In this document: positions 4,604 through 64,000 of the stretch, one piece after another
Layout: every line of letters begins with the position of its first letter
How positions within the stretch are numbered: position 1 is the stretch's first letter
NCBI GenBank assembly: GCA_040753795.1
Contig: JBFMDX010000005.1
Location: 62,001 to 126,000 of the forward strand
DNA: 64,000 nucleotides
Source of the DNA: Thermodesulfobacteriota bacterium
GTDB lineage: Bacteria > Desulfobacterota > Desulfobacteria > Desulfobacterales > Desulfosudaceae
Reading direction: 5' to 3'
The notes under the pieces: generated by a model
Database searches by the model: none
Told to the model about the DNA's origin: nothing
What the model saw: only the letters and a program-made list of their open reading frames with translations
Position numbers and translations under genes: made by a program

Positions 4604-6760
4604 TTAATCGTTGAGGTCATCGATCTCTTCATAGGATCGGGTCGGCATCGAAATCAGATTGAAAATCGGCCGGATCTGATCCACAAACAGCTTGACGCTG
4701 CCGATGGAACTTCTGGGGATATAGACCAGATCGCCGTTGACCAGGTCCAGATTCTGTGCCTGACTCCCCTGTTCGACCAGAGACCGGACATTGGCGGCAA
4801 TCACCTCCGGAGAAGTGATATCTCCCCGGACGATGCGGGTTTCTTCCGGGCGGCCGAAGATGGTGGGTCCGCCGGCCTGGGCGATGGCATCAAACAGCTT
4901 CATGCTGGAACCGCTGAAGGAATACCTGCCGGGTTTGTTGACCTCGCCAAATACATATACCCGGGATGAACCTTCTGCCATACGGGGGACAAATATCAGG
5001 TCTTCGTTATCCAGAACCGGATCCTGGGATCGGTCTCCCTGGGTAATCGCTTTGAAGATATCCGCCTTGACCACTATGCTGCCGTTTTTGCGACGGATCT
5101 GGATATTGTTCAGGTCCGCGGTCTCTGCCAGCAAACCGCCGCCGGCCAGAACTTCCAGCAGTTTGGTTTTTCCAGTTAAGTATTTGATGCCGCCGCCGAC
5201 CTGACGATCCAGGGCGGTATCGCTGCCCGGCCCCATTACCGTCACGAATTTGCTTTTGTACTGTTCCACGGTCACATCGATCTGGGGATCGATGATGTAC
5301 CGGGACAGTTGCCGCTTGAGTTCTTCCTCCACCATGGACGGCGTCATGCCGACCACATACAGATTATTGACGAAATTAAATGAAATTTTACCGTTGGGTT
5401 TGACAACAACCTTATCGCTGCGCACACCTTCGGGCACCCAGATATCAATAGCCAGAAGGTCCATGACGCCGATTTTATATTCAGGTATTCCGTTAACAGT
5501 GGTAAACACTTCGTTTTCGAACACATCACTGGCGTCCGGCAATTCCTTGCGCAGCGAACCTCCAGCGGCGTTTTCATCGGCTACATCAACAGAAGTTTCC
5601 GGATTAACGGGAAAGGGACGGATCCCCTCTCCATCGGAAGACGCCAAAATAATGGGCGTCCCCCCTTCGACCAGCGACATCTCGGCCAGATCGAAGTAGG
5701 AACCTTCGGTCGGAAACCGGTCGTCAAGACGACCCCAGGACCCCGCTCCCTTATTCCGCCAGCAGCTGATCCCGCCGTTTTCGATGGAAGTGGCCAGCAG
5801 ATCCACCCGGTCATCGCCGTCCACTTTTACCGGGAAAGCCTTCCAGAAGCTACCTTCCATCACCGGGCCGTCCATTTTGCTGAATTCGCCACGGCCGTTT
5901 CCGGCATAAACCGCCACTCCGGACCGGTAGGTGCCGGACATCAAATCAAGAAAGCCATCTCCATTGATGTCCCCCGGCGTGATGGTGTAAAATTCGCCCT
6001 GGCCCACGGTGGATGCCGGCGACCATTTTCCCTTGCCGTCACCGAACCAGACCTTGACTGAACCGTAAGTTCCCCAGCCCGCGGCGGCAATATCCAGCAG
6101 GCCGTCGCCATTAAAATCGGCGGTACATACATCCATAAACTTGCCGTTAATAGTCGGTCCGCACTCGACTTCCCAGCCGCCTTTACCGTTTCCCAGCCAG
6201 ACCTGAACGCCGCCGTGGCTGTCGGCAGTGGCGTTGGCGGCGACAATATCGTAAAACCCGTCATTGTTCACATCCGCCAGTTCGATCCCCTCATAATTAT
6301 TGATATGAACGGGGCTTTGACCTTTTTCCCAGGCGCCTTCCGGACCGTTCAGCCAGACCATCAGGCCGGATGATTGCCGTTGAACGGAACAGACAATATC
6401 TTTGAGTCCATCGCCGTTGATGTCCGCGGCATCAATGGACCGGATGTCTCCCTTGATCGGAAGAGCCAGGGGTTTTAAAAAATTGGCGTCTTTCTGCTTG
6501 TACCAGACAGAAACGCCTCCCGGCTCCGAAGAGCCGCCGGCAAAGTCCGGGAATCCGTCATTGTTCAAATCCGCTACGACGACGCAACGGTAGCTTCCCG
6601 ACGTGATCGGGGTGCCGGCGTTAAACATGACCATCGGCTGAACGGCGGAATGGTTGGCGGCGCATCCGGCCAGCAAAGCGACGGCGCACAGAATGACGAT
6701 CATGACTCCGGCAAAAAATCGCCAGCCGGTTTTTCCGGCGGTTCTGGTACTTTTATTCAT
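4604..6760 (-). CDS. Outer-membrane polysaccharide export lipoprotein with N-terminal FG-GAP/VCBS propeller
   Basis: A 718-residue lipoprotein (signal peptide ending LLAGC, lipid Cys33). Residues about 55-375 contain five perfect DxNxDGxxD calcium-loop repeats (64, 113, 163, 215 and 264) and a degenerate sixth near 313, spaced 49-52 residues, the pattern of FG-GAP/VCBS beta-propellers. Residues about 425-505 are a Poly_export domain (YKIGVMDLLAIDIW), and 508-690 hold SLBB-type segments (VYVFGEVNKPGRYSF at 601). Poly_export proteins such as Wza form the outer-membrane channel for polysaccharide; they normally have no propeller. I start at ATG 6760, eleven bases after AGGGAG, rather than the GTG at 6772 next to it. 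It sits between the ATPase and kinase genes, so it is the exit pore of this system. Domain calls are firm; the propeller role is unknown. Confidence 0.9.
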   Translation of the reverse strand: MNKSTRTAGKTGWRFFAGVMIVILCAVALLAGCAANHSAVQPMVMFNAGTPITSGSYRCVVVADLNNDGFPDFAGGSSEPGGVSVWYKQKDANFLKPLALPIKGDIRSIDAADINGDGLKDIVCSVQRQSSGLMVWLNGPEGAWEKGQSPVHINNYEGIELADVNNDGFYDIVAANATADSHGGVQVWLGNGKGGWEVECGPTINGKFMDVCTADFNGDGLLDIAAAGWGTYGSVKVWFGDGKGKWSPASTVGQGEFYTITPGDINGDGFLDLMSGTYRSGVAVYAGNGRGEFSKMDGPVMEGSFWKAFPVKVDGDDRVDLLATSIENGGISCWRNKGAGSWGRLDDRFPTEGSYFDLAEMSLVEGGTPIILASSDGEGIRPFPVNPETSVDVADENAAGGSLRKELPDASDVFENEVFTTVNGIPEYKIGVMDLLAIDIWVPEGVRSDKVVVKPNGKISFNFVNNLYVVGMTPSMVEEELKRQLSRYIIDPQIDVTVEQYKSKFVTVMGPGSDTALDRQVGGGIKYLTGKTKLLEVLAGGGLLAETADLNNIQIRRKNGSIVVKADIFKAITQGDRSQDPVLDNEDLIFVPRMAEGSSRVYVFGEVNKPGRYSFSGSSMKLFDAIAQAGGPTIFGRPEETRIVRGDITSPEVIAANVRSLVEQGSQAQNLDLVNGDLVYIPRSSIGSVKLFVDQIRPIFNLISMPTRSYEEIDDLND

Positions 6761-6775
6761 ATGATAAAACACTCC

Positions 6776-57375: not shown

Positions 57376-57379
57376 ATCC

Positions 57380-57417
57380 GTTTCCCGGACCTTGCTGAAG
57401 CGGCAGGTCCGGAAAAC
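57380..57417. terminator. Bidirectional-type hairpin between convergent genes
   Basis: GTTT, one base, CCGGACCT (57380-57392) pairs with AGGTCCGG, one base, AAAC (57405-57417). It lies five bases after the hypothetical gene and 27 before the actin stop. AT-rich flanks support termination in either direction, though T runs are short. Confidence 0.5.
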
Positions 57418-57444
57418 GAATGCGAAAATTCAGAAAAAATCGGG

Positions 57445-58464
57445 CTAGAGTTGTTCCCAGTATTTTTCGGGCATATCCTGGGCCAGCTTCAAAGCGCCGT
57501 CGGACCCGGCAAACAACGGGTCCTCCACGCATTTCACGTTGCAGGGGCCGTATTCCTTGAGGGCATCCTGGACGTATTCCTTGATCCCCCGGATCAGGCT
57601 TCCGCCCCCGGCCAGAACAATATTATTCTTGATCTTGACCTGGAACTCGGGATCAAATCGCGCGATCATCTCGGTGGTGGTCTCCATCAGGGCCGGCATA
57701 ATGCTTTCACAGGCCCGTCTGACCTCATTCTTGATGTCATGCATCACCGGTTTTCCGTCCACGGGCAGTTCCACCCGGATCTCCTCCGGGATCTCCCGCA
57801 CGAAGCTGAACTGCTCCTTGAATTCCCTGACCATGTTCTTGTTGAACTTCGAGTTGGAAAATTTTTCATTCAGGTAACTGAACAGCTGATCGTCGATGTA
57901 GTCGCCGGCGGTCAGAATTGTTTTCTGATCCTCTTCAGAAGGGATGGTCCCGTGCATGATGCAGAAATCCGTAGTGCCGGCTCCGATATCAATGACCATG
58001 GCGTTATTCAGCAGCCCCATTCCATAGGCGACGGCAAACGGCTCGGACACCACCATCATCGAATGGGCGAAATCCGCCACCGCTTTGCGGATGGCGAGCT
58101 TGTTGACTTTCAGTGTATCGGCGGGCACGCCGACCACCGCGAAGATCTTCCGGCCGGTCTCGGGTCCCGCCAGGCTGATCAGATGCTTGATGATCTCCTT
58201 GACCGCCTCTTCGCTCCGCTCGATGCCTTCCTTGATGACGCCGTGCTGCAGCGGCCGGAACAGATCAAGGGAAAGGCGGTGCTGGAGCGCTTCCGCGCCG
58301 AACATGACCGGCTTGCCCACGACCTGCTGGGCGATAAAATCCTTGGGCCAGCCGACAAAGCTCTGAACCCATTCCCGCGTACCATTGCTGGCGGAGATGG
58401 AACTGCGCGATGTTCCGAGGTCGATACCCACAAACAGGATCTGCTCATTGTCTTTTGGCTTCAT
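57445..58464 (-). CDS. MamK-like bacterial actin
   Basis: A 339-residue actin-family ATPase that is closest to MamK, the filament that lines up magnetosomes. Visible motifs: phosphate 1 FVGIDLGTSR (DLGTS 15-19), EPFAVAYG with E141, phosphate 2 VIDIGAGTTDFC (159-166), and adenosine NIVLAGGGSLIRG (281-293). Its end ECVEDPLFAGSDGALKLAQ...YWEQL matches MamK as I recall it. E141 and D159 correspond by alignment to catalytic E143 and D161 of MamK. ATG 58464 follows AAAGGAG inside the end of the amidase gene, overlapping it by 20 bases. No mam or mms genes are seen. Family is firm; filament function is inferred. Confidence 0.9.
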   Translation of the reverse strand: MKPKDNEQILFVGIDLGTSRSSISASNGTREWVQSFVGWPKDFIAQQVVGKPVMFGAEALQHRLSLDLFRPLQHGVIKEGIERSEEAVKEIIKHLISLAGPETGRKIFAVVGVPADTLKVNKLAIRKAVADFAHSMMVVSEPFAVAYGMGLLNNAMVIDIGAGTTDFCIMHGTIPSEEDQKTILTAGDYIDDQLFSYLNEKFSNSKFNKNMVREFKEQFSFVREIPEEIRVELPVDGKPVMHDIKNEVRRACESIMPALMETTTEMIARFDPEFQVKIKNNIVLAGGGSLIRGIKEYVQDALKEYGPCNVKCVEDPLFAGSDGALKLAQDMPEKYWEQL

Positions 58465-59653
58465 AAATGAAATCTCCTTTATCCAAATAATCAAGTATTC
58501 CCTTTTCAAGATAACTGGCGATATTTTCCCGGTGAGCTTCGGTGTTCAGCTGCACCTCTTCCTCCCGGTTGCTCATGCAGGAAACTTCGGTGAGGACCGA
58601 AGGGACGTCGACCCCCAGAAGCACCACAAACGGCGCCCTTTTCACGCCATAATTATAAATGTGACTGTTCTGCCGGCGGCTGGATACAAACAACTCCTTC
58701 TGAATGGAGGTGGCCAGGTTTCTGGATTCCTGGAGTTTTAACGTATCGCCGATTTTCTCGATCATCTGTTTGAAGTCGCTCAAGGCATATTCCGATCCGA
58801 CATTTTCCTTTTCCGCCAGCCGCATGATTTTCGGATCGGAAGACGGGCCGAAATAGTAAGTCTCGATAATATTGATCGGTTTTTTCGGCAGATAATTGAT
58901 GTGAATCGATACAAACAGATCGGCCCTGCTCTCCCGGGCCGTATACACTCGCCGCTGAAGGGGCAGGGTCGCGTCATCCTCACGGGTCATTAAAATGTTA
59001 TATCCCTCGTGTTTCTCCAGCCGCTCCTTCAGTCTTCTGGCGATGTCAAGGGTAATGTCCTTTTCTTTTGTACCGAGGCTTCCGATCGTTCCGGGATCGT
59101 CACCGCCGTGCCCGGGATCGATCATGATGGTTTTAACTCCCAGGCCGAACATTCGGCTTAACGGGATATTGCCCCTTTCCAGAAGGCCGTTGAAATCCGA
59201 CGGCTTGACCAGACTCTCCGACGGAAAGGGCGAATCCGGCATGACCGTCTGAACGAGCAGCGGCGCGATGCTTTCGGACGAATTGCCTTCCCTGGCGGCC
59301 GGCGCAACAAGCCCACCTCTATCGGGAGGAGTCCCGTTAAAATCCGTTTCAGGCGGATTTTCCGTCACATGGCCCATCCCGGTCGAGGTCGGCTGAAGTT
59401 TCTTCGGCGAAGCGGCGATACTTTCGGCAGGGTATCGTGCCGGAGCGACCGCCAGATGCGAAAAGCTCCCCTGAACGACATAGGCGGTCAGCAGAAGGAG
59501 CAGAAGAATCAGCATTTTCCGATAGGGGTAGTCGGATGGTTTCCTTCTCCGGTAAGAACCCTTGCCGATGATCCGGAGATTATCCTCATACACCCCTTTA
59601 AGGATGCCTTCTTTCAGCCTTGATTCCCTGTTTCTTAATAATGACGACATCAT
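58445..59653 (-). CDS. N-acetylmuramoyl-L-alanine amidase, membrane-anchored
   Basis: A 402-residue protein. A 46-residue cytoplasmic head and one membrane segment (about 47-61, MLILLLLLLTAYVVQ) precede a 130-residue linker, then an Amidase_3 domain (about 185-395). Zinc ligands are in MIDPGHGGDDPG, the Glu in GTKEKDIT, and His in FVSIHIN; the catalytic Glu is in SVLTEVSCMSN. It cleaves the bond between muramic acid and the stem peptide, often in cell separation. The -10 box TATAAT at 59667-59662 is only eight bases from ATG, suggesting a leaderless message. The MamK-like gene overlaps its end. Confidence 0.9.
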   Translation of the reverse strand: MMSSLLRNRESRLKEGILKGVYEDNLRIIGKGSYRRRKPSDYPYRKMLILLLLLLTAYVVQGSFSHLAVAPARYPAESIAASPKKLQPTSTGMGHVTENPPETDFNGTPPDRGGLVAPAAREGNSSESIAPLLVQTVMPDSPFPSESLVKPSDFNGLLERGNIPLSRMFGLGVKTIMIDPGHGGDDPGTIGSLGTKEKDITLDIARRLKERLEKHEGYNILMTREDDATLPLQRRVYTARESRADLFVSIHINYLPKKPINIIETYYFGPSSDPKIMRLAEKENVGSEYALSDFKQMIEKIGDTLKLQESRNLATSIQKELFVSSRRQNSHIYNYGVKRAPFVVLLGVDVPSVLTEVSCMSNREEEVQLNTEAHRENIASYLEKGILDYLDKGDFIYEAKRQ

Positions 59654-59868: not shown

Positions 59869-61566
59869 CTAATTGACATAACTCACCCGGAACGGGCCGA
59901 CGATGGAATTAAAGACCAGATCACCGTTTTTCAGGTACTGTAAAATGGCATAGGCGCCGTTACCAAAATTCTGACGACCGAAAATCGTCTGATGCACCGT
60001 GGCGCCGCTGTCCCAGTCAAGACCGGTGACTTCCCACCCTCTTTCCGGGGTATATCCGTTCACGACGGCCAGGTGCTGCGACCGGCTATGGACGGGAATC
60101 ATGCTGGTGGAAGACACGTCAGGCCGGGACCAGACTGAAACCCACCGGTCTTCATCCGTGTCCCAGCGAAACCGCTCTACTCCGTAACAGGTGTCATAAG
60201 CCGGTCCCATCAGGGACACCGCCAGCAGTTTATTGGTACCGGCGATTTCCGAATCCTCCGCATTTTCCGGAATGTTGTTGACCACAAAGGCGCCGTAGCC
60301 ATCAACCACGACCGACTGTTCCGACTGGATCCAGTCCGGAGCAGCGGCGAATCCGCAGGTCACCTCCATTTGCCCGGCGATTCTCCGTGAAGCGGTATCC
60401 GGCCGCTGGACAAAATCCGCCGGGATGGCGTCGCGCCAGAAGGCCACCAGTTTCATCCGCCTGGATCCGTCGGTAATGACGACCAGTTTATCGGAATCGC
60501 TTCCGAATCCCATGAGGGTCGGGGTGGAGCCGGTGCCCGTACCGAATTTGACGATGGGCGGCACGGCATCTTCAGGTGCGTCATAGGGACTCGACCAGGC
60601 GCCGTCGGCTTCCAGGTCGGAAATCCTGTCGCCGGTCCAGACCAGCTTCCGCATTATTTTATTGGAGGCGACGTAAATACCGTTATCCTCATCCACGGCA
60701 ATGGAATTGGTAGTGCTTTCGTCCAGTCCGAAGGGATAAAAGCGGGCGGTCGAAAGGTCGAAGTCGCGATCGATTACGGCAATTCCGTTGTTGAAATTAA
60801 CAATCAGATAACCGTCATAAGTCAGGGTCAGCCCGAACAGGCGGATGGAATCCGGCGGCATGAACCCGGCCGCTTCCTGGATGTCGGCGGCATTGTCGAT
60901 CTGCCTCAACACTTCAATCCCCCGGGATGGATCCCGAAAATCACGCAGGCCGAAGGCGTAGATACCGAAGCCGAAATTGGCGTACAGCACGTTGTCACGG
61001 TCCACCACGGAATATGCGCCGTTAAAAAGACGGAATAAATAATTGGTACCGAAGTTCTCGACAAGGTAGACGTCCATTTCATCGATGGTCATGCCGGCCG
61101 GATCCATCTGGCCGAAATCCCGCTGCGTTTCCTCTGAAACCGGGCCAAGCGTCGGATCCATGTACGCGGGCGCGTCCAGAAACGCGACCGTGTTCCAGCG
61201 TTCATCATCCATACGCACATAGGCCACGTGATCCGTTCCGACCCCCCACATGTAGTCGGGATCAACGGCTGCCAGGGTAATGATATTCACCGGGCCGCCC
61301 CAGGAAATGGGCTGCTGTTCAGGATCCACGGTAAAAGTTCCGGCCGGAGGGCCATAGGGGGTGGAATCACTCTGGGATGAGTCAAAATGGGTGATGCCGT
61401 ACAGGGAGGATGAAAGAAAGGGATTGGGTGCCGCCCGCATGGTTCTTTTGTCGCTATCGCTGTCATCCCAATCGCAGGCGGACAGGGTTATCAGCAGGGC
61501 AGCGGTCAGAACATAATATCCGGCAGACTTCAACAGACGTTTTCGTTCCGTTTTTTTTGGGCGCAT
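59869..61566 (-). CDS. Large secreted lipoprotein with beta-propeller-like pattern, unknown
   Basis: A 565-residue lipoprotein (MRPKKTERK start, lipobox LITLSAC, Cys31 followed by Asp, a retention signal for the inner membrane in enteric bacteria). The body repeats strand-like units such as LTYDGYLIVNFNNGIAVIDRD and NSIAVDEDNGIYVASN, suggestive of an NHL/SMP-30-type propeller. I recognise no family. ATG 61566 has AGGAG eight bases upstream; a TTG at 61584 is unlikely. It follows the Clp gene's terminator and precedes the amidase by 215 bases. Function unknown. Confidence 0.65.
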   Translation of the reverse strand: MRPKKTERKRLLKSAGYYVLTAALLITLSACDWDDSDSDKRTMRAAPNPFLSSSLYGITHFDSSQSDSTPYGPPAGTFTVDPEQQPISWGGPVNIITLAAVDPDYMWGVGTDHVAYVRMDDERWNTVAFLDAPAYMDPTLGPVSEETQRDFGQMDPAGMTIDEMDVYLVENFGTNYLFRLFNGAYSVVDRDNVLYANFGFGIYAFGLRDFRDPSRGIEVLRQIDNAADIQEAAGFMPPDSIRLFGLTLTYDGYLIVNFNNGIAVIDRDFDLSTARFYPFGLDESTTNSIAVDEDNGIYVASNKIMRKLVWTGDRISDLEADGAWSSPYDAPEDAVPPIVKFGTGTGSTPTLMGFGSDSDKLVVITDGSRRMKLVAFWRDAIPADFVQRPDTASRRIAGQMEVTCGFAAAPDWIQSEQSVVVDGYGAFVVNNIPENAEDSEIAGTNKLLAVSLMGPAYDTCYGVERFRWDTDEDRWVSVWSRPDVSSTSMIPVHSRSQHLAVVNGYTPERGWEVTGLDWDSGATVHQTIFGRQNFGNGAYAILQYLKNGDLVFNSIVGPFRVSYVN

Positions 61567-61655
61567 GAGACTTTCTCCTAACAAAAAATATATTTTAAAA
61601 AAAATTATAGCACCTTTTTCTTACACTGGCTATCCGGGATTTCCTCTCCCGAAAG

Positions 61656-61724: not shown

Positions 61725-64000
61725 TTAACGGACCGGCACGATCGCTATGCGGTCAGCTTCAACACGGGCCCTCCAGACTTTCCGCTCCGCGAACTTTCCA
61801 TCCAGGGCCATGGCGGCAAGAGGCGCCTGAAGCATCTGATCGATGGTTCGTTTGAGCTCCCGCGCCCCGAATTCCGGGCTGAACCCCCGGTTGACCATCT
61901 GGCCGAAGGCCTCTTTTGAAATCTTCAGGGTAACGCCGTATTTTTCCCTCAGGCCGGACAGGATATCCAGGCAGATCATCTGGGCGATTTTGCCGACGGC
62001 GGCCTCGTCCAGGGGATTGAAGAGAATGATCTCGTCAATGCGGTTGACGAATTCCTTGCGAAAAAATCCCGACAGGGATTCCATCAGGTCGGCGGTCGAG
62101 GGGGCCGCCGTGTCCGCCACCCGAGAAACGAAGCCCACCGCGTTGTCCCCGCCGGTGGTGACGGCCAGGTTGGAGGTCATGATAAAAATGGCGTTTTTTG
62201 CGTCCACGGTCCGTCCCTTTGAATCGGTGATGCGGCCGTCGTCAAATACCTGGAGGAACAAGTCAAAGATCCGGGGATGGGCCTTTTCCACCTCGTCAAT
62301 CAGAACAATGGAGAACGGTCGGGTCCGCAGCCGGCCGGTGAGCTGCCCCTCCTCTTCATAGCCGATATATCCCGGGGGAGACCCGATCAGTTTGGCCGCC
62401 GAATGCTCTTCCATGAACTCCGACATGTCCAGGCGGATCATTGCGTCCGGCCGGCCGAACAGGAATTCAGCCAGGGCTCTGGCGGTCTCGGTTTTGCCCA
62501 CGCCGGTGGGACCAAGGAAAAGGAAAACAGCCACCGATCCCTTCCGGCGGGTAATACCGGAATAGGCGATCTTGAGTTTTTCGCAAATCCGGCGGACGGC
62601 ATCTTTCTGCCCGATGATTCGTCGTCCGAGGTGCTTTTTCAGGTCCAGTATCCTGGCACCGCCGGACCGGCCCTCATGGCCGGCGATGATCTCCAGGGGG
62701 ATGCCGGTCTTGTCGGACAAGACCTGCGCCACGGCCGTCTTGTCGACGACGCCTCCCGAAGTCTCGTCGGGCAGGCCTCTCGCGGCGCCCGGGATCATGC
62801 TCAAAACCGGGATCTTCGCCCTGGCGCCGGCCTTGTCGACCAGGTCGATGGCCTTGTCCGGCAGGCGGTGATCCGGGTCAAACCGGATGGCCAGGTCCAC
62901 GGCGGCATCTATCGCCCGGTCGCTGACGGTGACGCCGTAATGCTTTTCCCAGCGGGGCCGGATACCTTTTAGGATGGCAACGGTCTCATTCCGGTCCGGT
63001 TCCTCGATCAGGACCATTTCAAATCTTCTGGCCAGGGCCGGATCCTGTTCAATATGCCGACGGTATTCGTCAATGGTCGTGGCGCCGATGCAGGAAAATT
63101 CGCCCCGGGCCAGTACCGGCTTTAACATATTGGCCGCGTCCATGCTCCCTTCGGCCCGGCCGGCGCCGATCATGTTGTGGATTTCGTCGATAAAGACAAT
63201 CGTGCCGGGCTGGCTTCTGACCTCGGCGATGATCTTCGTCAGCCGTTCTTCAAATTCTCCCCGGTACTTTGTCCCGGCCTGGAGCGCGCCCAGGTTGAGT
63301 TCGATGATCCGCTTGCCGGACAATACAGCCGGGTCCTTGCCCTCCACGATCCTCATTGCCAGGGCTTCGACGATGGCGGTCTTCCCTACCCCGGCTTCTC
63401 CGACAATCACCGGGTTGTTCTTTTTTGACCGGGCCAGGGTCTGGATGATATGAAGCAGTTCCTTCCTGCGACCGATAAAAGGCCCGAGCCGGCCGGCCGC
63501 GGCTTCTTCGTTCAGATTCCGGCCATACAGCGCCAGGGTCGGGGTGACAGCGGGATTTACCGGACCGCCGGGGACCTCCGGCATGGCGGCGCCGGCGGGG
63601 GCAGGACCTGCCGCGGCGGCGTTGATCAGGGATTGGAATTGCGCCGGTGATACCCCCAGGCTTTCGATGGCCGCGGTAATGACGGACCCCGGTGAATCCA
63701 GGATGGAGGCCAGCAGATCGACAGCGGTGATTTCTCCGGACCGGGAATGCGATTCGGCGGACTGGAAAACGCCTTTGCATTCCGCGCTCCGGTGGACCAC
63801 GGCGCCGGGAGGATGAACGTATTTTCCACGGCCCTGAAGCGATCGCGTCCGGCGGCGGATATCGGCCATGGACCGGCCGAGGCCGGACAGCGCGCCTGCA
63901 AGGATCTGGTACTCGCCCTTGAGTCGCGCGTAATCGACATCGGAGATATTCAGATCCCGGGGAGAGGCGGCGACCACTTTGTCCAGGCTGAAAACCGCCA
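61725..64000 (-). CDS. ClpA/ClpC-like AAA+ unfoldase, C-terminal part (start outside the window)
   Basis: An HSP100 ATPase whose frame remains open to the window edge; over 750 residues are visible. A Clp N-type helical domain is followed by a first AAA domain (GEAGVGKT, VFIDEIHN) and a second (GPTGVGKT, IVLIDEVEKAHP). There is no long coiled-coil middle domain, so it is not a ClpB disaggregase. A NAVGFVSR loop sits where ClpA, ClpC and ClpX carry the hydrophobic tripeptide that docks to ClpP, so it probably feeds a protease. No clpP or clpS is in view. Confidence 0.88.
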   Translation of the reverse strand, partial: AVFSLDKVVAASPRDLNISDVDYARLKGEYQILAGALSGLGRSMADIRRRTRSLQGRGKYVHPPGAVVHRSAECKGVFQSAESHSRSGEITAVDLLASILDSPGSVITAAIESLGVSPAQFQSLINAAAAGPAPAGAAMPEVPGGPVNPAVTPTLALYGRNLNEEAAAGRLGPFIGRRKELLHIIQTLARSKKNNPVIVGEAGVGKTAIVEALAMRIVEGKDPAVLSGKRIIELNLGALQAGTKYRGEFEERLTKIIAEVRSQPGTIVFIDEIHNMIGAGRAEGSMDAANMLKPVLARGEFSCIGATTIDEYRRHIEQDPALARRFEMVLIEEPDRNETVAILKGIRPRWEKHYGVTVSDRAIDAAVDLAIRFDPDHRLPDKAIDLVDKAGARAKIPVLSMIPGAARGLPDETSGGVVDKTAVAQVLSDKTGIPLEIIAGHEGRSGGARILDLKKHLGRRIIGQKDAVRRICEKLKIAYSGITRRKGSVAVFLFLGPTGVGKTETARALAEFLFGRPDAMIRLDMSEFMEEHSAAKLIGSPPGYIGYEEEGQLTGRLRTRPFSIVLIDEVEKAHPRIFDLFLQVFDDGRITDSKGRTVDAKNAIFIMTSNLAVTTGGDNAVGFVSRVADTAAPSTADLMESLSGFFRKEFVNRIDEIILFNPLDEAAVGKIAQMICLDILSGLREKYGVTLKISKEAFGQMVNRGFSPEFGARELKRTIDQMLQAPLAAMALDGKFAERKVWRARVEADRIAIVPVR

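Follow-up and report, generated by a model that had tools for sequence, protein, structure and literature searches.

The window, the whole 64-kb stretch of DNA that was analysed, carries two overlapping genes on its minus strand. The upstream gene (58445-59653) encodes a membrane-anchored N-acetylmuramoyl-L-alanine amidase (Amidase_3) of 402 amino acids, and the downstream gene (57445-58464) encodes a MamK-family actin-like protein of 339 amino acids. The two coding regions share 20 nt (58445-58464), so that the actin gene starts within the amidase coding region, as the first-pass annotation had stated. Its ATG (58464-58462) is preceded 5' by a Shine-Dalgarno sequence, AAGGAG (58474-58479), which also lies within the amidase gene. 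We observed a strong hairpin 3' of the actin gene (about 57376-57421, minus strand; MFE −28.9 kcal/mol, z −5.1). This hairpin probably terminates transcription of the two genes and also of the convergent gene; it was missing from a simple terminator scan, either because its loop was over the limit of the scan or because it failed the T-tract rule. The amidase gene is separated from the next gene upstream by 215 nt, and two promoter-like matches found ahead of the pair, on the correct strand, were no more than expected by chance. The hairpin and the upstream gap suggest that the pair is a complete two-gene unit.

We assigned the upstream protein to the Amidase_3 family (Pfam PF01520, E = 2.8e-44). 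Its catalytic domain (about residues 174-394; 58472-59134, minus strand) aligned to residues 175-396 of AmiC and 22-244 of AmiA, the E. coli enzymes that are also its nearest solved structures. Both alignments covered an AmiA/AmiC-like regulatory insertion (about residues 271-330), which in AmiA and AmiC holds an autoinhibitory helix. The ligand and catalytic positions H182, E197, H251 and E356 were invariant wherever aligned (81-82 of 82 rows). The protein is not an AmiA/B/C equivalog (AmiC, 120 bits against a cut-off of 700; AmiA, 119 against 400; membrane helix and cytosolic tail present), and Pfam showed no AMIN domain in it. In the AF2 model, a short N-terminal region leads into a membrane helix, after which a disordered linker extends to the catalytic domain. 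AF2 and charge bias placed a single transmembrane helix at about residues 42-62 (59468-59530, minus strand) with the N-terminus inside, and the cytosolic side was the more positive one, as the inside-positive rule predicts, in 79/79 homologues. The family match and the helix agree with the earlier description of a membrane-anchored amidase overlapping the actin. The window's genome and almost all relatives also encoded ordinary AmiC-type amidases, which matched the paired enzyme only from about residue 160; relatives outside the module had this ordinary type alone. The paired amidase is thus an addition and not the housekeeping amidase.

The downstream protein is a MamK-family actin. It scored 421.8 bits against the NCBIfam MamK model NF040964 (cut-off 400) and was 41-42% identical to AMB-1 MamK. 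The same model was passed by six of eight further amidase-paired actins drawn from different subclades, and the remaining two fell just below it (399 and 392.6). A PDB search ranked MamK first (5jyg/5ljv, E = 2e-88), BeeR next (1.3e-41) and MreB third (2.5e-16). The AF2 model, built with 38 homologues (pLDDT 90.6), had the MamK filament 5ljv as its best PDB match (TM 0.93/0.96, rmsd 1.4 Å over 324 columns). All of the MamK blocks quoted in the first pass were found in the sequence, namely DLGTS (phosphate 1), EPF, DIGAGTTD, AGGGSLIRG and YWEQL. The ATP-site residues D15, G17, E141, D159 and G161 were invariant.

Membership in other actin families was rejected by scores and tree position for FtsA, MreB, ParM and BeeR. 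The protein was far below the cut-offs for BeeR (NF053558, 221.3 bits vs 530) and MreB (NF010539, 95.7 vs 293; TIGR00904, 81.6 vs 365.75). It passed the Pfam MreB_Mbl model at 101, a model that is broad, and a canonical MreB is encoded separately in the window's genome (G000:C1:72926). No ParM or StbA family match was found in Pfam or NCBIfam at E values up to 0.001, which leaves the protein without a match to a plasmid-segregation actin family, and scores for FtsA and PilM in the same two collections were below cut-off. The proposed affinity to MamK is thus upheld by the NF040964 score, the PDB ranking and the tree position inside the MamK family; the recommended comparison with the MamK, MreB and ParM families, together with a tree, placed the protein within the first and in neither of the others.

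An alignment of nine actins served as the query for a scan of GTDB species genomes, from which we retained the 80 most similar loci. A relative of the Amidase_3 gene lay directly upstream on the same strand in 79/80 of these loci, which were picked by similarity to the window protein and beyond which any deeper reach of the pairing lies. The sole exception was an actin without an amidase (L153), and three related genomes (G192, G411, G436) had the same amidase neighbour. The coding regions overlapped by 4-56 nt, most commonly 32 nt, in 68 of the 79 paired loci, which supports the earlier suggestion that the two proteins are made together. At 60 of the 79 homologous loci the actin gene had a Shine-Dalgarno sequence of at least 5 bases. 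By NCBI name, the carriers belonged to Nitrospirota (28), Thermodesulfobacteriota (18), Pseudomonadota (15) and Rhodothermota (7), together with one or a few MAGs each under the names Acidobacteriota, Rokubacteriota, Bacteroidota and Aminicenantes; five carriers labelled "Myxococcota" bear old "Deltaproteobacteria" names and are not countable as Myxococcota. Roseithermus sacchariphilus (L158) is cultured and has a complete genome, and four more carriers are complete or chromosome-level MAG records. Misbinning therefore cannot account for the overall pattern.

Flanks of 6 kb were compared on both sides of the loci, and only the actin and the amidase were common to nearly all. The next commonest true neighbour was a downstream gene at 22 loci, nearly all in Nitrospirota, and a third conserved module gene was rejected on these grounds, this gene being clade-specific. 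It encodes ~406 amino acids, lies ~1 kb past the actin start (L084-L109, L134), and its first residues resemble a response-regulator receiver domain (DTILLVDAVPEIEEKI...). Opposite-strand "families" near the loci proved to be frames running antisense to the two genes and were left out. Overall, the pairing of actin and amidase is a conserved module.

The amidases of the module share a cytosolic tail. In the window protein this tail covers residues 9-32 (RESRLKEGILKGVYEDNLRIIGKG; 59558-59629, minus strand), and we propose from its conservation that it is an actin-docking motif. The motif has the form IL(R/K)GVYE(D/E)NL and lies 15-36 residues ahead of the membrane helix. It was present in 80/80 amidases with an intact N-terminus, counting LLKALYDEN in L109, and the two amidases without it (L086, L155) were both cut short at the N-terminus. 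Mean conservation reached 0.64 in residues 16-30, compared to 0.25 and 0.23 in the neighbouring blocks, 0.01-0.07 in most of the linker and 0.5-0.75 in the catalytic domain. L18 and N25 were invariant in a 42-row alignment in which the linker was unconserved. The tail motif is thus conserved like the active site, whereas the linker is not. AF2 predicted the tail as a basic, possibly amphipathic helix. A tail profile gave nothing above noise in four carrier genomes except the paired amidase, so that no other tail-bearing clients emerged there, and it gave noise only in two magnetotactic genomes. Generic amidases were rejected as tail carriers, as 1/29 fitted a loose form of the pattern, and this one did so without the flanking features. 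In the R. sacchariphilus amidase (L158, upstream of 10001) the motif is repeated in tandem (EILRAVYEENRRI, VLRGVYETNRAM), and the two copies might be separate docking sites.

We used trees to place both proteins. In a maximum-likelihood tree, the amidase-paired actins formed one clade (100/100), a monophyly that is partly built into the sample through the selection of loci by similarity to the window protein. This clade was sister (94/91) to the mad-cluster MamKs of magnetotactic Desulfobacterota, with AMB-1 MamK outside both. What remains informative is that the nearest unpaired relatives of the paired actins are magnetosome MamKs and that the pairing spans phyla. The tree does not fix the root of the MamK family, and hence the ancestral state, because the MreB/BeeR outgroup branches are very long. 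The paired amidases formed one lineage against 29 generic amidases of related genomes (SH-aLRT 100). Pairwise divergences of actin and amidase were correlated (r = 0.94; none of 2000 permutations reached this value). Such a correlation is expected for genes inherited together as a single unit, and vertical descent shared by both genes would by itself also be expected to give a Mantel value this high. The window actin grouped among Nitrospirota (100/98). UvrB, encoded 6.5 kb from the module, was closest to two genomes of the same family as the host (73%), both without the module, and the contig itself is thus native to the host, a member of Desulfobacterota. The two affinities are most simply read as horizontal transfer of the pair. 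The assignment to phylum depends on G192 corresponding to the record of Syntrophaceae UBA1163, with which it shares an identical contig (L101). A viral origin was rejected, a single-protein query having returned no relative in viral contigs.

We searched for magnetosome genes with three proteins from a related genome (L054) that has a clear mad-type magnetosome cluster. The queries, run against six genomes, were a MamM/MamB-like CDF protein, a MamN-like transporter and a coiled-coil protein. Two magnetotactic genomes among the six gave orthologues of the queries. In the window's genome (4.75 Mb, 99.8% complete), the CDF and MamN-like matches were generic (26% and 30% identity), compared to 52-55% between two true mad clusters. 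Three other pair-bearing genomes had generic CDF matches (26-30%) and generic transporters or PDZ fragments only. The coiled-coil protein had zero matches in these four genomes. Comparison with the mad-cluster genes, together with a scan of ten larger window genes, showed mam genes neither in the 64-kb window nor in the 20 kb of contig flanking it to the left and right. The first-pass statement that none is visible over 64 kb therefore held, and the three queries found no mad/MamB cluster genome-wide either. The window actin is thus encoded neither beside mam or mad genes nor in a genome where these three queries detect them. It also does not cluster with the magnetosome MamKs; its clade is separate and sister to those of mad clusters, with the root unsure.

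These data are best explained by a module of two genes that acts on the cell wall. Its first gene encodes a single-pass inner-membrane amidase with its zinc catalytic domain in the periplasm, joined through the disordered linker to the membrane helix and the short, helical cytosolic tail. The translationally coupled downstream gene encodes the MamK-family actin of the cytoplasm, where it is predicted to assemble into filaments, and the tail motif would dock on these filaments. Through the tail, the filament may gather or position the amidase, or relieve its inhibition, across the membrane. Cleavage of septum or side-wall peptidoglycan would thereby be restricted in space and time. Actin-directed wall cleavage is, in our view, the best explanation for a periplasmic hydrolase that has a cytosolic tail and is co-translated with an actin. 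We hold with moderate confidence that docking of the tail on an actin filament concentrates, positions or gates the amidase. The first-pass annotation had tied the filament to a wall hydrolase and listed division, septal positioning and organelle placement as roles; a role of the actin in wall hydrolysis stands as the best inference, with both the pairing and the tail conserved, and the narrower roles, like the choice between an ancestral and a repurposed one, stay conjectural. The first-pass reading is thus partly supported: it was correct on the sequence and, broadly, on the idea, while the conserved pairing and the cytosolic tail lay beyond what it could see.

We weighed other explanations for the locus. 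Short overlaps are common between adjacent bacterial genes, and the adjacency might be due to chance or to a housekeeping operon without functional meaning. However, the same order and strand recur in 79/80 loci from several phyla, 68 of them overlapping, while the flanks have turned over. The 79/80 pairing refutes this explanation for practical purposes, and its probability is negligible. The module might instead be the relic of a lost magnetosome cluster, since the paired actins are sister to mad-cluster MamKs and the order of the host has magnetotactic members. This is very improbable. The window actin is nested in the amidase-paired clade nearest Nitrospirota (100/98) and not beside the mad MamKs of its own order, orthologues of MamB, MamN and the mad coiled-coil protein were not found in the genome, and the actin gene is intact with its motifs conserved.

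Two further explanations accept the pairing and differ on what the tail binds or how the actin acts. The actin could be a monomeric or short-oligomer ATP-binding adaptor, in the manner of PilM with PilN or FtsA with FtsN, that binds the amidase tail and connects the enzyme to the divisome without long filaments. PilM, an actin fold that binds the short cytosolic portion of the single-pass protein PilN (PMC4471445), offers a parallel, and the amidase tail is likewise short, with one conserved block. The protein is, however, far closer to filament-forming MamK (41-42% identity, TM 0.93/0.96) than to PilM or FtsA, and we regard an adaptor as unlikely. A basic, possibly amphipathic tail helix would also fit binding to another partner (FtsZ, FtsA, MreB or the membrane surface), with the actin independent and the genes merely co-expressed. 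Yet the tail occurs on the actin-paired amidase only, whereas FtsZ and MreB occur in countless genomes without such tails. In addition, amphipathicity would not require a pair of invariant residues that includes a polar Asn, and the pairing persists over several phyla while all other neighbours change. We judge binding to another partner to be quite unlikely.

Actin-directed wall cleavage remains our preferred reading, and we compared the pair to known systems. The paired actin resembles MamK (5jyg, 5ljv; NF040964) in family score, fold, ATP-site motifs and length, but differs in lying outside a magnetosome cluster, in its amidase partner, in its own clade and in fixed differences such as W32, W39, F43 and G80. 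BeeR, three-stranded and of unknown function (8r2n; PMC11929497), is likewise a MamK relative in non-magnetotactic hosts, in its case Verrucomicrobiota; its identity to the paired actin is about 30%, and its N-terminal extension is absent from the latter. The paired amidase shares the catalytic domain, zinc ligands and matching regulatory insertion of E. coli AmiA/AmiB/AmiC, but it is membrane-anchored, has the conserved cytosolic tail, has no AMIN domain and forms a separate lineage. AmiA/B/C are soluble enzymes that are exported and depend on EnvC/NlpD for activation, and the known routes of amidase control involve activators that are ABC-transporter-like or lipoproteins. FtsA, an actin fold, recognises the short cytosolic tail of bitopic FtsN, and the actin homologue MreB directs cell-wall enzymes via its bitopic partner RodZ. 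The pair resembles MreB/RodZ in combining an actin homologue and a bitopic protein with cell-wall enzymes, but the paired actin is far below the MreB cut-off and the genome has its own MreB. Both amidase activation by FtsEX-EnvC and FtsN recruitment through FtsA have been described (PMC8998562). PilN-PilM resembles the pair in that an actin fold recognises the short cytosolic tail of a bitopic protein (PMC4471445). PilN-PilM and FtsN-FtsA differ from the pair in that their membrane partners are no hydrolases and their actins are not of the MamK family.

The components are of known kinds (a MamK-family actin and Amidase_3), and we did not find the conserved pairing and the tail described. Our literature search found no description of MamK or another bacterial actin with an amidase; it covered open-access papers and is hence no proof of novelty. 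A survey of Nitrospirota found no magnetosome-cluster genes in non-magnetotactic genomes (PMC9376291), which implies that MamK-family actins there were either overlooked or excluded by thresholds. MamK has been described as the magnetosome cytoskeleton; the MamK-family actins reported here are common in Nitrospirota and others and are tied to a wall hydrolase. A specific role other than that in magnetosomes can thus be proposed for MamK-type filaments, and an automatic "MamK" annotation is no evidence for magnetotaxis. The paired actins are a candidate sister group for the question of MamK origin, and the proposed coupling of an actin in the cytoplasm to an amidase in the periplasm would be direct and physical. 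As a tentative extension, the pair may represent a new cytoskeletal system of several phyla, in which a dedicated MamK-family filament in the cytoplasm takes hold of a transmembrane amidase by its tail and directs peptidoglycan cleavage, or turns it on and off, without involving FtsEX-EnvC or MreB. Such a system would share a common cytoskeletal ancestor with magnetosome MamK, which may itself have been recruited from a wall-linked actin of this kind.

We also observed other MamK-family loci. A second non-magnetosome type (434.8 bits) occurs at L070 (9245-10243), L071, L076 and L077 (genomes G055, G017, G120 and G148), where it follows conserved proteins of 117 and 663 amino acids without a Pfam match and has no amidase; the L077 gene (G148) is split in two frames. 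A further clade (L060, L062, L063, L064, L065, L079), 40-42% identical to the window actin, occurs in Desulfobacterota genomes, mostly of 6-8 Mb, in contexts that all differ and with no mad genes in the stretch read. One genome (G333) has both an actin of this clade and a mad-cluster MamK, and another (G145) has a second MamK gene beneath a longer antisense frame. At L066 (8777-10962), two divergent MamK genes stand in tandem, a MamB-like CDF gene follows at some distance, and this locus is probably a magnetosome cluster with two MamKs.

Three other minus-strand genes of the window were recorded. The gene at 61725-63977 encodes a ClpA/ClpB-like AAA+ protein of 750 amino acids that is far below the cut-offs for ClpB (694 of 1232) and ClpA (621 of 993). 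The gene at 59869-61584 encodes 571 amino acids with a lipoprotein-like N-terminus and zero Pfam or NCBIfam matches. At 4607-6772, within a large exopolysaccharide cluster, FG-GAP repeats are fused ahead of a polysaccharide-export (Poly_export/SLBB) protein.
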